Shown here: in pieces, positions 139-4,610 of the stretch
Layout of the letters: the number at the start of each line of letters is the position of its first letter
Position numbering within the stretch: position 1 is the first letter of the stretch
Assembly (NCBI GenBank): GCA_937951625.1
Contig: CALFBP010000044.1
Coordinates: 1-57,269, forward strand
DNA from: an uncultured Thermoguttaceae bacterium
Lineage (GTDB): Bacteria; Planctomycetota; Planctomycetia; Pirellulales; Thermoguttaceae
Direction of reading: 5' to 3'
Length of the DNA: 57,269 nucleotides
Translations under genes and position numbers: made by a program
Notes under the pieces: generated by a model
Seen by the model: only the letters and a program-made list of their open reading frames with translations
Database searches by the model: none
What the model was told of the DNA's origin: nothing

Positions 139-507
139 GGCCTGCGCGGACAACGAGTGGTGATACCTAAAAGTACTTGTCGCGCAACAGCTTAGTGTTC
201 CCACGCTAAGTTGATTCAGTTAGTCGTTTGCGGAGCCACGGCGGAACGCCTCGGACCAACCACTCCGTCGCCTTAATTTCCAATGCCCAGCGACAAAGGA
301 CCGAGCCTATCTCACGCCTCGGTTGCAAGCCAGAAATGGCGAATCATAATGGTCCGAATGAGGTAGGGGATGACGCCTTTGGTGGGCAGCCGGACGTCTT
401 GACCGTGTAGCCCGCCGTGCCGGCGGAGGCAAACGCTCGTCCGCGGCCTGTTCCCTGTTTCCAATTCTCCAGTCTTCTCCTCTTCCGAACACCGGGAGGA
501 TCTCTGC
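139..507. other. Intergenic region without a recognisable gene
   Basis: About 370 bases between the partial gene and the fusion gene. It holds the imperfect 20-base palindrome at 191-210. Close to the next gene is GGGAGG at about 491-496, a good ribosome binding site for the ATG at 508. No RNA gene or convincing protein is visible. The long open frame on the opposite strand here only continues the antisense shadow of the fusion gene. Confidence 0.5.
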
Positions 508-3225
508 ATGATCGCCAATCAGGGGATACCGGAACAGACGATGGTCGTGATCTTGGCCGCGGGCAAGGGGACGCGGATGGGCCGTCCTGACCTGGTCAAG
601 GTTTGCTTCGAGATCGACGGCGTGCCGGCCATCAATCGGCAGATTTCCGTGTTCAAGCGTCAACGATTCGGGCGTTTCCTGTTGGTGGTGGGTTCCCGCG
701 CGGACCAGGTGCTGGAGACCGTGACGCGCGACCACCCTGGCGTTCTCTACGTGCATCAGGAACCGCAATTGGGCACGGGCCATGCGGCCAAGATCGCCGC
801 CGAGGCCCTTCAAGCGATCGGCTATGAAGGCTATGTGTTGGTGGCCATGGGCGACAAGTTTTTGGAAGAAGCGGCCCTGGAGGCGCTGGTCAGCGGCTAC
901 GTCCGCCAACGGGCCGACCTGGCCTTGCTGACGATCCCCAAGACCCCAGCGACCGAGGCCTCGGCGGGCCGCGTGTTCGTGGACGAGCAAGGCCAAGCCT
1001 TGGACATCGTGGAACGGGTCGATCTGGCCCGGCAGATGATCGCCGACGACTTGACCGAAATGCTGGCCAAAAAAGAAGCCCTCCGCGGCGCGGACCTGAT
1101 GGCGGTCATCGAAAAACACATTCCGCAGCCCAAACGCCAACAGACAGCCGTTCCTGAACTTTTGGCTCTCGGCACCGCCGCCGACGCGTTCGTCGACCGC
1201 GGCAAGCTTGAAAACATCCTTCAGGGCAAGCAATACAACCTCACGATCGGGGGCAAGCGGTACTCGGGCCGCGAACTGGACCGGCTCTGCGGGGCGGTGA
1301 ATCCGAGTTTGTACTTGATGCGGGCCGAGGTTTTTTATCAAGGCGTGGGCCGCATCCGTAACGACAACGCTCAAGGTGAATACTACATCACCGATATGAT
1401 CCGCCTGCTGGCCGAACTCCGCGATCGCGAAGGCAATCCTCGGTACCGCATTCGGGCCGTGCCGGTGGATAATCCCGATTGGGTCCAAGGGTTCAATTCG
1501 CCCGACGAGCTGGTGGCCATCCAGGACTATGTGCGGCGCAAAAAGCTGGGCGAATTGAAGATCGAGGTGGCCGACCACCGCCCGGCGCTTCCTCCGCAAC
1601 AATACATGACGGTAAGGCAGTGGCTGGCCCGAATCGAGGCCCGACGCCCCGTGTTCCGACGCTGGCTCCGCAGGGTCTATGGCTCCCATCCCGATCTGCA
1701 CGAGGAAAAATGCCGCGATTTGAGCAACGTCTTGGAGTGCTACGCCAAGCGGTTCGGGCTGGACGAGAAGGTCTGCATCGTCCGCGCGCCGGGCCGGATC
1801 AATCTGATGGGCCGTCACGTGGACCATCGTGGCGGGATGACCAACTTTTTGGCCATCGACCGCGAGACCATCGCCGTCGTGGGCCGCCGCGACGACGGCG
1901 ACGTGATGGCGGTCAACACCCAGCCCAGCAAGTTCAAGCCGGTCCACTTCAATATCTCGGAGCTCATTGGCCGGTTCGCTTGGCACGATTGGGTCAATTT
2001 CGTCAACAGCGATTGGGTCCGCGACATGATCTACGTCAGCGCGGGCGACTGGGGCAACTACATCAAAGCGGCCACGTTGCGGCTCCAGCATCGCTATCAA
2101 GACGTCCGCGTCCGCGGCCTGAACATGGCCCTCACCGGCAACGTGCCCATGGCCGCAGGACTGAGTTCCAGCTCGACGCTCGTCGTGGCCACGCTGCAAG
2201 CGGCCATCGCCTTGAACAACTTCGATTTGACCAGCCAGCAATTCATCGACCTTTGTGGCGAGGGCGAGTGGTTCGTCGGTTCGCGGGGCGGGTCGGGCGA
2301 TCACGCGGCGATTTCCTTGGGCCAGCGAGGCAAGATCGCCCACGTCGGTTATCTCCCCTTCCGCGTGGAAAAAATCTTCGACGCCCCCGCCGATTACCAG
2401 GTCCTCATCGCCAACAGCCACATCAAGGCCGCCAAGAGCGGCTCGGCCCGCGATCAGTTCAATTCCCGGATCGCCGCGTACAACCTCGGGCTTGCCTTGC
2501 TGAAACAGCGTTGTCCGCAGCTCGAAGGCGTTGTGGAGCATCTCCGCGATCTGGACCCTAAAAAACTCGGCTGCTCGGTCAGCGACGTCTACCGTTGGCT
2601 GCTCAAAGTGCCAGAAAGCATGACCCGCAAGGACTTCCGTGCCGTGCTCTCCAAGGAACACCGCGAGATGATGGAGGCCAATTTCGCCACCCATGCTGAG
2701 CCGGAGGCCTATCGGCCGCGGGGCGTCTTGTTGTTCGGCATCGCCGAGATTCTCCGCAGCCGGATGTGCGTGGACCTACTGGAGACCGGGCAGGTCGAGG
2801 CCTTCGGACGCTTGATGAAGATCAGCCACGACGGCGACCGCGTGAGTCGTCCCGACGCCGAAGGACGATACCAGCCTTGGGAAATCGATTGTAGCGATGC
2901 CTGCTTCCATCGGCTCATCGCCGATCTGAGCAGCGAGGACCCGGAGCGCGTGCTTCGGGCCCAATTGTTCATGCAGCCGGGCCTTTATGCGTGTAGCACG
3001 CCGGAGATCGATCAGATGGTCGATATTGCCTGTGGGGTGCCGGGCGTGGCCGGGGCGCAGATCGCCGGGGCCGGGCTGGGCGGTTGCATCATGGTCTTGG
3101 CCCAGCGAAGCGCGGTTTCGGCTGTCCGGCGTGCCCTGGCTCGCCACTACTACCGTCCGCGTGGCCTGGAACCAGCGGCCTTGCCTTGCATCACCGTCGA
3201 GGGCGCTGGACTGGTCGAGGCGTGA
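508..3225 (+). CDS. Bifunctional GlmU-like nucleotidyltransferase / galactokinase-type GHMP sugar kinase fusion
   Basis: 905 residues. Residues 12-335 are a GlmU-type NTP transferase: LAAGKGTRM at 16-24, a GTGHAAK nucleotide-binding motif, YYITDMI and a closing GFNSPDEL. There is no left-handed beta-helix, so acetyltransferase activity is not expected. Residues about 410-905 are a galactokinase-like GHMP kinase: RAPGRINLMG from about 424, the ATP loop MAAGLSSSS near 548, and GAGLGGC near 853. The likely role is sugar salvage in the cytoplasm: the kinase makes a sugar-1-phosphate and the transferase converts it to an NDP-sugar. The sugar is unknown, because the galactose-binding stretch GEHTDY of classical GalK reads GRHVDH here. 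The start at 508 follows GGGAGG; another ATG at 541 would also keep the first motif. It converges with bioA, with 17 bases between them. Domain identities are seen in the sequence; the joint pathway is inference. Confidence 0.85.
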   Translation: MIANQGIPEQTMVVILAAGKGTRMGRPDLVKVCFEIDGVPAINRQISVFKRQRFGRFLLVVGSRADQVLETVTRDHPGVLYVHQEPQLGTGHAAKIAAEALQAIGYEGYVLVAMGDKFLEEAALEALVSGYVRQRADLALLTIPKTPATEASAGRVFVDEQGQALDIVERVDLARQMIADDLTEMLAKKEALRGADLMAVIEKHIPQPKRQQTAVPELLALGTAADAFVDRGKLENILQGKQYNLTIGGKRYSGRELDRLCGAVNPSLYLMRAEVFYQGVGRIRNDNAQGEYYITDMIRLLAELRDREGNPRYRIRAVPVDNPDWVQGFNSPDELVAIQDYVRRKKLGELKIEVADHRPALPPQQYMTVRQWLARIEARRPVFRRWLRRVYGSHPDLHEEKCRDLSNVLECYAKRFGLDEKVCIVRAPGRINLMGRHVDHRGGMTNFLAIDRETIAVVGRRDDGDVMAVNTQPSKFKPVHFNISELIGRFAWHDWVNFVNSDWVRDMIYVSAGDWGNYIKAATLRLQHRYQDVRVRGLNMALTGNVPMAAGLSSSSTLVVATLQAAIALNNFDLTSQQFIDLCGEGEWFVGSRGGSGDHAAISLGQRGKIAHVGYLPFRVEKIFDAPADYQVLIANSHIKAAKSGSARDQFNSRIAAYNLGLALLKQRCPQLEGVVEHLRDLDPKKLGCSVSDVYRWLLKVPESMTRKDFRAVLSKEHREMMEANFATHAEPEAYRPRGVLLFGIAEILRSRMCVDLLETGQVEAFGRLMKISHDGDRVSRPDAEGRYQPWEIDCSDACFHRLIADLSSEDPERVLRAQLFMQPGLYACSTPEIDQMVDIACGVPGVAGAQIAGAGLGGCIMVLAQRSAVSAVRRALARHYYRPRGLEPAALPCITVEGAGLVEA

Positions 3226-3242
3226 GGCGGGGCCGACCGCCT

Positions 3243-4610
3243 TCACTTCGTCATCTGTTGGATGCCTCGCTCCACGGCGGTACAAATCCGATCCAACTCG
3301 TCGAGCGTGATGCTCAGCGGCGGGAAAATGACGATCACGTTGCCCAACGGTCGCAAGAGCACGCCTTCGCGCCGCGCGTGATCGCACACCTGCCAGCCCC
3401 GTTTCTCGGCCCAAGGGAACGGCTCTTTCGTGGCTCGGTCGCGGACCAATTCCACCGCGCCGATCAGCCCGCATTGACGGCAATCGCCCACCGGCGGCAA
3501 GCGGCGGATGCGATCCAGGTGTTCACCGAGTCGTGCGATCTTGGGAGGAAGATTTTCGAGGGTCTTCTCCTCGTCGAAGACTTCGAGCGTGGCCAGGGCG
3601 GCCGCTGCCCCCAACGGATTGCCGCCGTAGGTATGGCCGTGGAAAAACGTCTTCGATTCGGCATACGTGCCCAGGAAGGCGTTCCAAATTTCCTCGGTGG
3701 CCAAGGTGGCGGCCAGCGGCAGATACCCCCCGGTGAGCCCCTTGGCCAGACACAGCAAGTCGGGCGACACGCCTTCGTGTTCGCAGGCGAACATGCGTCC
3801 GGTGCGGCCCATGCCCACGGCCACTTCGTCGGCGATCAGCAGCACGCCGTACTTTCGGGTCAAGTCGCGAACGCCGCGGAGGTATCCCGGCGGGTGGACG
3901 ATCATCCCCGCCGCGGCCTGAACCAGCGGCTCGACGACCATGGCCGCAATCCGCTCGTGGTGCTGGGCGAGAACTTCTTCAAGCTGTGCGAGGTAATAGC
4001 AGGTGGCGTTGTCTCGGGTGACGCCCGGCGGCATGCGGTAAAGATCGGGCGGCGGGACGCGGAGACACTCGAACAACAGCGGCTTGAACATGGCGTGGAA
4101 CCGCTCCACCCCGCCCACGCTCACGCTGCCCAGCGTGTCGCCGTGATAGGCCTCGCCCAACGCGAGATAACAGGTTTTTTGGGGCCGAGGATCGGACCGC
4201 TGCCGCCAATACTGGAAGGCCATCTTCAACGCCACCTCGACCGCCGTGGCGCCGTCGTCGGAAAAGAATACGTGCTCCAGGCCTTCGGGGGCGATGTCCA
4301 CCAGTCGCCGGGCCAAGCGGATCGTCGTCGGGTTCGACGCCCCCAAGAGCGTGACGTGGGCCACTTCGTCCAGTTGGCGTCGAATCGCGGCGTCGATTCG
4401 CGGGTGGCGATGGCCATGCACGTTGCACCACAGGCTGCTGGTGCCGTCGATGTATTCATGGCCGTCAATATCGAACAGGCGGCAGCCTTCGCCGCGCACA
4501 AGAATCAGCGGCTCGTACTCCGCCATCTGCGTGAAGGCGTGCCACACCAGGCGGCGATCCCATGCTTTGAGCTGTTCCTTGGTGGGCTGTTCAAGCGAAG
4601 ATGGGGGCAT
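3243..4610 (-). CDS. bioA: Adenosylmethionine--8-amino-7-oxononanoate aminotransferase
   Basis: 455 residues, normal for BioA. It transfers an amino group from S-adenosylmethionine to KAPA, giving DAPA, the penultimate intermediate of biotin synthesis (cytosolic, PLP-dependent). Visible family marks are WHAFTQM near residue 23 (BioA has WHPFTQM), DGTSSLWCNVHGH at 55-67, the YHGDT segment near 155, the DEVAVGMGRTG cofactor region at 261-271 and the PLP lysine in LAKGLTGG (K290). The WHxFTQM and SSLWCNVHGH segments favour BioA over other class III aminotransferases. No bioB, bioD or bioF is nearby, so the pathway must be scattered or completed elsewhere. Confidence 0.93.
   Translation of the reverse strand: MPPSSLEQPTKEQLKAWDRRLVWHAFTQMAEYEPLILVRGEGCRLFDIDGHEYIDGTSSLWCNVHGHRHPRIDAAIRRQLDEVAHVTLLGASNPTTIRLARRLVDIAPEGLEHVFFSDDGATAVEVALKMAFQYWRQRSDPRPQKTCYLALGEAYHGDTLGSVSVGGVERFHAMFKPLLFECLRVPPPDLYRMPPGVTRDNATCYYLAQLEEVLAQHHERIAAMVVEPLVQAAAGMIVHPPGYLRGVRDLTRKYGVLLIADEVAVGMGRTGRMFACEHEGVSPDLLCLAKGLTGGYLPLAATLATEEIWNAFLGTYAESKTFFHGHTYGGNPLGAAAALATLEVFDEEKTLENLPPKIARLGEHLDRIRRLPPVGDCRQCGLIGAVELVRDRATKEPFPWAEKRGWQVCDHARREGVLLRPLGNVIVIFPPLSITLDELDRICTAVERGIQQMTK

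Follow-up and report, generated by a model that had tools for sequence, protein, structure and literature searches.

We investigated a gene at positions 508 to 3225 (+) of contig CALFBP010000044.1 (assembly GCA_937951625.1) from an uncultured Thermoguttaceae bacterium, a member of the Planctomycetota; the whole stretch of 57,269 nucleotides that was analysed is referred to here as the window. The gene encodes two intact, co-conserved modules in a single chain of 905 residues, an N-terminal nucleotidyltransferase of the GlmU type and a C-terminal GHMP kinase of the galactokinase type. We consider its product very probably (roughly 85%) a working sugar 1-kinase/uridylyltransferase. The C-module would use adenosine triphosphate to phosphorylate a free hexose derivative at its anomeric hydroxyl, and the N-module would convert the sugar-1-phosphate and uridine triphosphate (UTP) to a UDP-sugar and pyrophosphate; we infer both reactions, UTP as the donor, which sugar is used and any passage of the intermediate from one active site to the other. 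We give even odds to the sugar being an N-acetylhexosamine, that is N-acetylgalactosamine (GalNAc) and/or N-acetylglucosamine (GlcNAc), in which case the likely product would be UDP-GalNAc or UDP-GlcNAc and the protein a bifunctional salvage enzyme. In animals, GALK2 and UAP1 perform the equivalent conversion in two steps.

A sequence-only reading of this DNA had proposed that one polypeptide carries both enzymes, and that a free sugar could go directly to a nucleoside diphosphate (NDP)-sugar. The first proposal held, as the open reading frame is uninterrupted from its ATG at 508 to 3225 (+), the earlier coordinates were exact, and all the motifs quoted are present. The second is supported by the two-module architecture, since GlmU-type and galactokinase-type modules in one enzyme could together take a free sugar to an NDP-sugar. 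A GGGAGG sequence lies 8 bases 5’ of the ATG, upstream of which the frame stays open only as far as base 403. The gene begins 507 bases from the end of the contig (contig C44 of our genome G000, which is the window itself), and its upstream neighbour is therefore unreadable in its own genome.

We surveyed the genomes of 84,980 species and identified 307 stretches that encode a relative, the best 80 of which were kept. Together with the window, 56 of these 80 loci form the set of 57 aligned fused proteins to which residue counts refer; L094, which has a stop in its translation, was left out, as were 23 others that were partial, near-copies or unchosen, including L071 and L069. Site correspondences come from alignments to GlmU and galactokinase sequences in the PDB. 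The features of the gene are as follows.

508..3225 (+): whole gene, GlmU-type uridylyltransferase plus galactokinase-type GHMP kinase, 905 residues (open reading frame, translation, Pfam/NCBIfam, alignment with 56 fused proteins)
538..1551 (+): N-module, GlmU-type nucleotidyltransferase, residues 11-348 (PDB profile search, structure model)
553..579 (+): nucleotide-binding loop LAAGKGTRM, residues 16-24, containing R23 (R23 and nearby K31 in 57/57)
853..855 (+): D116, metal ligand position (57/57)
1030..1287 (+): mostly helical insert of ~85 residues, about residues 175-260, between the two GlmU-aligned halves (helices in the model)
1366..1395 (+): NAQGEYYITD, residues 287-296, sugar-site motif resembling that of GlmU and containing E291 and Y293 (both 57/57)
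1495..1497 (+): N330, second metal ligand position (57/57)
1552..1719 (+): linker between the modules, residues 349-404, with low order at 352-355 and helices beyond (pLDDT, secondary structure)
1720..3222 (+): C-module, GHMP kinase of the galactokinase type, residues 405-905 (Pfam, structure comparison)
1783..1836 (+): RAPGRINLMGRHVDHRGG, residues 426-443, with R436 at the galactokinase Glu43 position (sequence alignments)
2158..2175 (+): GLSSSS phosphate loop, residues 551-556 (invariant alignment columns)
2299..2301 (+): D598, position of the catalytic base (Asp in 55/57, Glu in 2/57)
3067..3087 (+): GAGLGGC, third GHMP motif, residues 854-860 (alignment, GHMP_kinases_C)

The domain search that the sequence-only reading had suggested gave six Pfam matches at E 0.001, of which the five named here exceed their cut-offs: NTP_transf_3 (residues 13-147) and NTP_transferase (13-170) in the N-terminal part, and GalKase_gal_bdg (411-460), GHMP_kinases_N (517-605) and GHMP_kinases_C (816-882) in the C-terminal part. 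An AlphaFold2 model of the fusion, with the 57 aligned proteins as input, has a mean predicted local distance difference test score (pLDDT) of 90.2 and a predicted template modelling score of 0.80. The best NCBIfam matches of both modules all fall below their equivalog cut-offs, so the fusion is strictly a member of neither the GlmU nor the galactokinase family. Pfam, NCBIfam, profile and structure matches nevertheless agree in assigning the N-terminal part to the GlmU type and the C-terminal part to the galactokinase type, as had been read from the sequence.

For the N-module, the best NCBIfam matches are GlmU models (up to 118 bits, far under the curated cut-offs; 109.6 bits against 366.85 for TIGR01173). 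A profile of the module matched GlmU entries of the PDB at 109-143 bits, and the best non-GlmU family at 48 bits. In a VIA structure comparison of the full model, the N-module matched GlmU with Z 31.7 over 254 residues at 1.9 Å; residues 1-348 modelled alone (pLDDT 95.1) gave Z 31.1 over 247 residues at 1.9 Å, with GlmU filling the first 24 matches (Z 31.1 to 27.1), followed by PntC (Z 27.0) and, at rank 33, UDP-glucose pyrophosphorylase (Z 26.1). The sequence profile separates GlmU from other families more clearly than the structure Z scores. Ten residues, R23, K31, Q84, T90, D116, E169, N265, E291, Y293 and N330, are identical in 57/57 fused proteins, and we take them to be equivalent to GlmU R18, K25, Q76, T82, D105, E154, N169, E195, Y197 and N227, with D116 (D105) and N330 (N227) presumably the metal ligands. 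The equivalents of R18, K25, D105 and N227 of the GlmU uridylyltransferase are thus all present in every aligned protein; G154 (GlmU G140) is kept in 55/57, and NAQGEYYITD aligns with identical letters in Streptococcus pneumoniae GlmU. There is no C-terminal left-handed beta-helix acetyltransferase domain, the kinase occupying the C-terminal part.

For the C-module, the best NCBIfam matches are galactokinase models (TIGR00131, 152.2 bits against a cut-off of 226.65). The VIA comparison matched galactokinase (Z 38.0, 377 residues, 2.1 Å) and the GalNAc kinase GALK2 (Z 36.2, 432 residues, 2.8 Å). GALK2 is the top PDB match by sequence, with 96 bits for the query and 170 bits for the family profile, and heads the Foldseek matches; the alignment to its chain 2a2c starts at residue 364, within the linker, and those to GALK1 chains from about residue 396. 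The positions of galactokinase R37, H44, G183 and the loop serine are kept in 57/57 fused proteins, while at each of the D46 and D186 positions 55 proteins have Asp and 2 have Glu; we take D598 to be the equivalent of D186, the catalytic base. R436 and H437 are present in 57/57 and D439 in 55/57, while F651 and N652, which align with FN of GALK2, are each kept in 55/57. Loss of catalytic residues, which would have spoken against the fusion, was not observed in either module, with these positions kept in 55-57 of the 57 proteins.

We examined how widely the fusion occurs. In the window’s family, among 99 genomes scanned, 24/61 carry it; 19 of the 61 match from residue 8 or earlier to residue 904 or 905 at 63-100% identity with no internal stop, and the stop or frameshift between modules that the sequence-only reading had named as a refutation is found in none of them. 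Of five further family genomes, G005 is cut at a contig end, G027 is split over two contigs, G033 matches over its full length at 38% identity, and G010 and G026 match as two pieces of one frame. The 38 genomes from other families of the order reach about E 1e-21 at best, and hence none of them holds a full-length match. Across the phylum, 7 of 392 genomes, with the two best candidates scored per genome, have a match at E 1e-100 or better, full length in G000, G224 and G242.

Among the best 80 loci, 74 have one stop-free frame across both modules, and 76 begin at or before query residue 107, the other four starting at most 12 bases from a contig end. The six loci without such a frame are four that are cut by contig ends, L069 and L071. 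For L069 the gene caller found no gene; a stop-free frame of 1263 residues carries the match, with its N-terminal part unaligned in the frame test. In L071 (7782-10739) the N-module is spread over separate stop-free pieces (query 1-144, 152-268 and 266-904), and the locus is either a decayed copy or the result of assembly errors. L094 has a stop codon inside the matched stretch. By record title the 80 loci come from 13 phyla or candidate phyla (Planctomycetota, Verrucomicrobiota, Lentisphaerota, Chloroflexota, Armatimonadota, Spirochaetota, Sumerlaeota, Hydrogenedentota, KSB1, WS1, Bacillota, Actinomycetota and a deltaproteobacterium); all but three titles begin with MAG, and L112 is a complete genome. 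Since 24/61 family genomes carry the fusion and 74/80 loci have it in one stop-free frame, it is no assembly accident, and the survey of the module order, suggested earlier as a check, bears out the original observation. Of the plasmid records, 27 matched and none covers 80% of the query; the 10 best listed match the kinase part at 22-31% identity.

Both modules are under purifying selection, with pairwise ratios of nonsynonymous to synonymous substitution rates, over six pairs, that lie at 0.10-0.18 in the N-module and at 0.03-0.16 in the kinase. This conservation bears on the alternative that the modules act on different sugars, or that one is merely structural, with no coupled pathway. Such uncoupling has a parallel in the frog homologue of a zebrafish fusion, for which kinase activity was confirmed and pyrophosphorylase activity could not be (passages of PMC3938481 on these enzymes), and could be reflected in L071, the one locus of 80 in which the frame changes inside the N-module. 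Against it stand the catalytic positions kept in both modules, the purifying selection on both, and the frame that spans both in 74 loci, with four of the other six running off the contig; we regard it as highly improbable.

A quick tree of the kinase module requires three changes of the fused label, and may be compatible with a single origin of the fusion. Two Verrucomicrobia rows cluster in a clade with planctomycete rows, which may reflect gene transfer. Kinase-only homologues were identified in G379, G153, G196 and G227, and in G030 alongside its fusion. G379 also encodes a divergent fused protein (L124 5842-8640 (+), 33% identity), its kinase-only homologue lying beside a NagA-like gene (L123 5591-7351 (-)). 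In 3/5 of the kinase-only loci a GlmU-C-like hexapeptide gene lies directly upstream (L122 4265-5218 (-), L125 5606-6316 (+) and L126 428-1360 (+)). As a partner of the fusion itself a hexapeptide (left-handed beta-helix) protein was rejected, no relative being found among the neighbour proteins of 70 fusion loci. We additionally identified, on contig C93 of the window’s own genome (L119), a galactokinase-type GHMP kinase gene (GKHTDYAGG) touching a nucleotidyltransferase gene (1349-2737 (-) and 2737-3663 (-)), which follows the logic of the fusion with two separate genes.

We favour an N-acetylhexosamine as the sugar because of the GlmU sugar-site residues, GALK2 as the top sequence match, and NagA-family or TviB/TviC-like neighbours in a minority of loci. 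A gene of the NagA family (GlcNAc-6-phosphate deacetylase) was identified within 2 kb in 5/62 genomes searched. In G012, G015 and G044 it immediately precedes the fusion (54-83 bases between the two matches); in G027 it lies 1.8 kb downstream, separated by a 195-residue open reading frame, and in G379 it immediately precedes the kinase-only homologue. As G012 and G044 share one genus, the five cases are not all independent. The NagA-like proteins of G015 (L050) and G379 (L123) match each other at 304 bits, against 181 and 220 bits to the NagA model. In a Clostridiaceae MAG (L093), genes for a TviB-like UDP-GlcNAc dehydrogenase and a TviC-like epimerase directly precede the fusion, and a related epimerase gene directly follows it in L097 and L107.

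Several observations weigh against an N-acetylhexosamine, or against our reading more generally. R436 stands in 57/57 fused proteins where GALK1 and GALK2 have Glu, and an N-acetylhexosamine does not explain it. The GlmU T199 position is T, S or P in 39, 14 and 4 of the 57, and galactokinases score slightly above GALK2 by Z. No NagA-family gene lies within 2 kb in 57/62 genomes, several of whose fusions, the window’s included, are near a contig end; the NagA matches range from 78 (a fragment) to 220 bits, under the equivalog cut-off of 225.65, and the TviB-like and TviC-like matches of L093 reach 482 and 313 bits against cut-offs of 592 and 760. A conserved operon was rejected, as no partner is common to more than 8 of the 70 loci (of the 80 kept) whose neighbours were clustered by protein similarity; the largest cluster, of 8 loci, includes the Gfo/Idh/MocA-type gene of L105, at varying distances. 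Some neighbours suggest other pathways: the glycolysis genes pgk and gpmI in two Chloroflexota (L088 and L096), rpiB and deoC in a spirochaete (L087), and gmd and fcl in L055. Finally, 15/34 fusion genomes outside the window’s family have GlmU.

The position of R436 looks like a specificity switch, being Arg in all the fused proteins, Met in 4/5 and Arg in 1/5 kinase-only homologues (Met in the L122, L125 and L126 kinases), and Glu in the aligned galactokinases; Glu43 of galactokinase presumably contacts the C6 hydroxyl of the sugar. The invariant arginine makes uronic acids candidate substrates, and could pair with a C6 carboxylate if galacturonate or another hexuronate were converted through the uronate-1-phosphate to a UDP-uronate. 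The HxDHxGG motif may resemble that of plant galacturonokinase. Fusions of a uronate kinase and a nucleotidyltransferase exist in fish and frogs (as described in parts of PMC3938481). The GlmU-type N-module keeps the residues around GlcNAc, and NagA-family genes occur as neighbours; no pectin or uronate gene is conspicuous among the 25 commonest neighbour families listed, and the aceric acid hydrolase family matched 2/56 neighbour proteins. We view a uronate as unlikely, and retain an N-acetylhexosamine as the favoured sugar.

Galactose, taken through galactose-1-phosphate to UDP-galactose in a GalT-independent, pyrophosphorylase variant of the Leloir pathway, appears a rather poor candidate. 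It is consistent with the galactokinase models and structures being closest to the C-module, with the epimerase genes that follow the fusion in L097 and L107, and with the window’s own genome, in which no galT-family match was found at E 0.001. Arginine at the Glu43 position argues against ordinary galactose, and the N-module resembles GlmU more closely than it does UDP-glucose pyrophosphorylases. Among 37 family genomes, galT-family hits (E up to 0.001) occur in 11/15 with the fusion and 13/22 without (Fisher p 0.49), so avoidance of galT by fusion genomes was rejected. Thus, a bypass of GalT, which the sequence-only reading had raised, is not borne out as the specific role of the enzyme, in view of these counts and of the arginine.

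We additionally considered that the N-module is a housekeeping UDP-GlcNAc pyrophosphorylase that displaced GlmU, the kinase being an added salvage entry. A separate GlmU was called from TIGR01173 matches below 1e-50, and a UDPGP protein, of a family that we take to include the eukaryotic UDP-GlcNAc pyrophosphorylase, from PF01704 matches below 1e-15. In the window’s family the fusion and GlmU occur inversely, a GlmU-type match being found in 5/24 fusion genomes against 25/37 without the fusion (Fisher p 0.0006), 4/18 against 15/22 by genus (p 0.005), and 4/16 against 12/20 in genomes at least 90% complete (p 0.049), all uncorrected for kinship. Two genomes of the 51 scanned around the window (G037 and G057, genus g38) have the fusion and neither GlmU nor UDPGP; elsewhere, a GlmU match is missing from 19/34 fusion genomes, including G485, whose record is marked complete, and UDPGP is missing as well from 9 of the 19. 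In contrast, a UDPGP match is found in 49/51 genomes around the window (47 below 1e-15, the window’s own included) and below 1e-15 in 10/19 GlmU-less fusion genomes elsewhere, with a further fragment at a contig end in G511. Most genomes thus have another possible route to UDP-GlcNAc, and UDPGP, rejected as a discriminating third alternative, could do the same job. The 15 fusion genomes elsewhere that retain GlmU also count against displacement, and the GlmU contrast is open to shared ancestry and missing contigs. We consider displacement distinctly unlikely. It is similarly doubtful that bacteria without GlmU depend mainly or solely on the fusion for UDP-N-acetylhexosamine, an essential cell-wall precursor that a kinase-coupled pyrophosphorylase would then feed directly from free sugar; if true, this would add to GlmU and UAP1 another way of supplying UDP-GlcNAc/UDP-GalNAc.

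In eight hand-picked fusion genomes without a GlmU match we observed a stand-alone GlmU-C-like hexapeptide protein of 224-323 residues (L139-L146), perhaps the acetyltransferase half. A weak UDPGP-like stretch was seen repeatedly within very long open frames, each of about 1100-1300 residues (in G486, G487, G490, G499, G507, G511 and others).

Downstream in the window, a convergent gene follows (3243-4610 (-)) whose product looks by eye like a BioA-type aminotransferase. An antisense open frame of 795 residues (307-2694 (-)) overlaps the fusion gene. It is probably a shadow of GC-rich codons, third codon positions being 80% GC; over the length of the gene, the stops in it number 1 in the window and 0, 0, 6, 4, 6, 1, 2 and 2 in eight relatives, although two close relatives among the eight thus also keep it open.

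If the favoured activity holds, the protein would be a natural single-chain UDP-N-acetylhexosamine (or UDP-uronate) synthase found across a dozen phyla and candidate phyla, and would provide a missing step of salvage to Planctomycetota, Lentisphaerota, Verrucomicrobiota and Chloroflexota. It would make UDP-GlcNAc supply testable with one gene in members without a recognisable GlmU, and could serve to make nucleotide sugars with a single enzyme, a purpose for which an artificial NahK-GlmU fusion already exists.

One-chain sugar 1-kinase/pyrophosphorylases are already known for other sugars, and the pairing of families described here is new to the literature searched, in which, among open-licence papers, no report of a fusion of GlmU-type and galactokinase-type modules was found. 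The sequence-only reading had named FKP as the nearest design. FKP of Bacteroides fragilis is a bifunctional L-fucokinase/GDP-fucose pyrophosphorylase of 949 residues, likewise with an N-terminal nucleotidyltransferase and a C-terminal GHMP kinase in one chain, whose N-terminal domain has a beta-helix and makes GDP-fucose (parts of PMC11982464 describing the enzyme); the N-module here is of the GlmU type with no beta-helix domain behind it, and no fucose-family model is among the six Pfam matches or the best 25 of 30 NCBIfam matches. The comparison holds for the architecture, which is built from different families, and not for FKP as the sole near design, as DrGKUP likewise carries a bacterial-type nucleotidyltransferase ahead of a GHMP kinase in one chain (sections of PMC3938481). 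DrGKUP, of zebrafish and Xenopus, is a glucuronokinase/putative UDP-glucuronate (UDP-GlcA) pyrophosphorylase, for which the abstract of that paper claims UDP-GlcA synthesis; it is set apart from our fusion by description, having a kinase of the glucuronokinase family and an N-domain set against glucose-1-phosphate nucleotidyltransferases. FKP and glucuronokinase are both absent from the best 50 structure matches listed, an absence that is no evidence of difference.

The fusion shares with GlmU the fold, motifs and catalytic positions of its N-module, and differs in the missing acetyltransferase domain, the extra helical insert, the fused kinase and scores below the GlmU cut-offs. With GALK1 and GALK2 it shares the fold, the GHMP motifs and the catalytic Arg37 and Asp186 equivalents of its C-module, and differs in having Arg for Glu43 and a score below the galactokinase cut-off. 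By the family tests made, it classifies as a member of neither FKP, GlmU nor galactokinase. NahK is not known to be a GHMP kinase. The engineered NahK-GlmU fusion of Zhai et al. (2012) gives one-step UDP-GlcNAc synthesis from a kinase and GlmU in one chain (account in part of PMC12525235), and differs in being man-made. The natural fusion described here probably works like the known kinase/pyrophosphorylase fusions.

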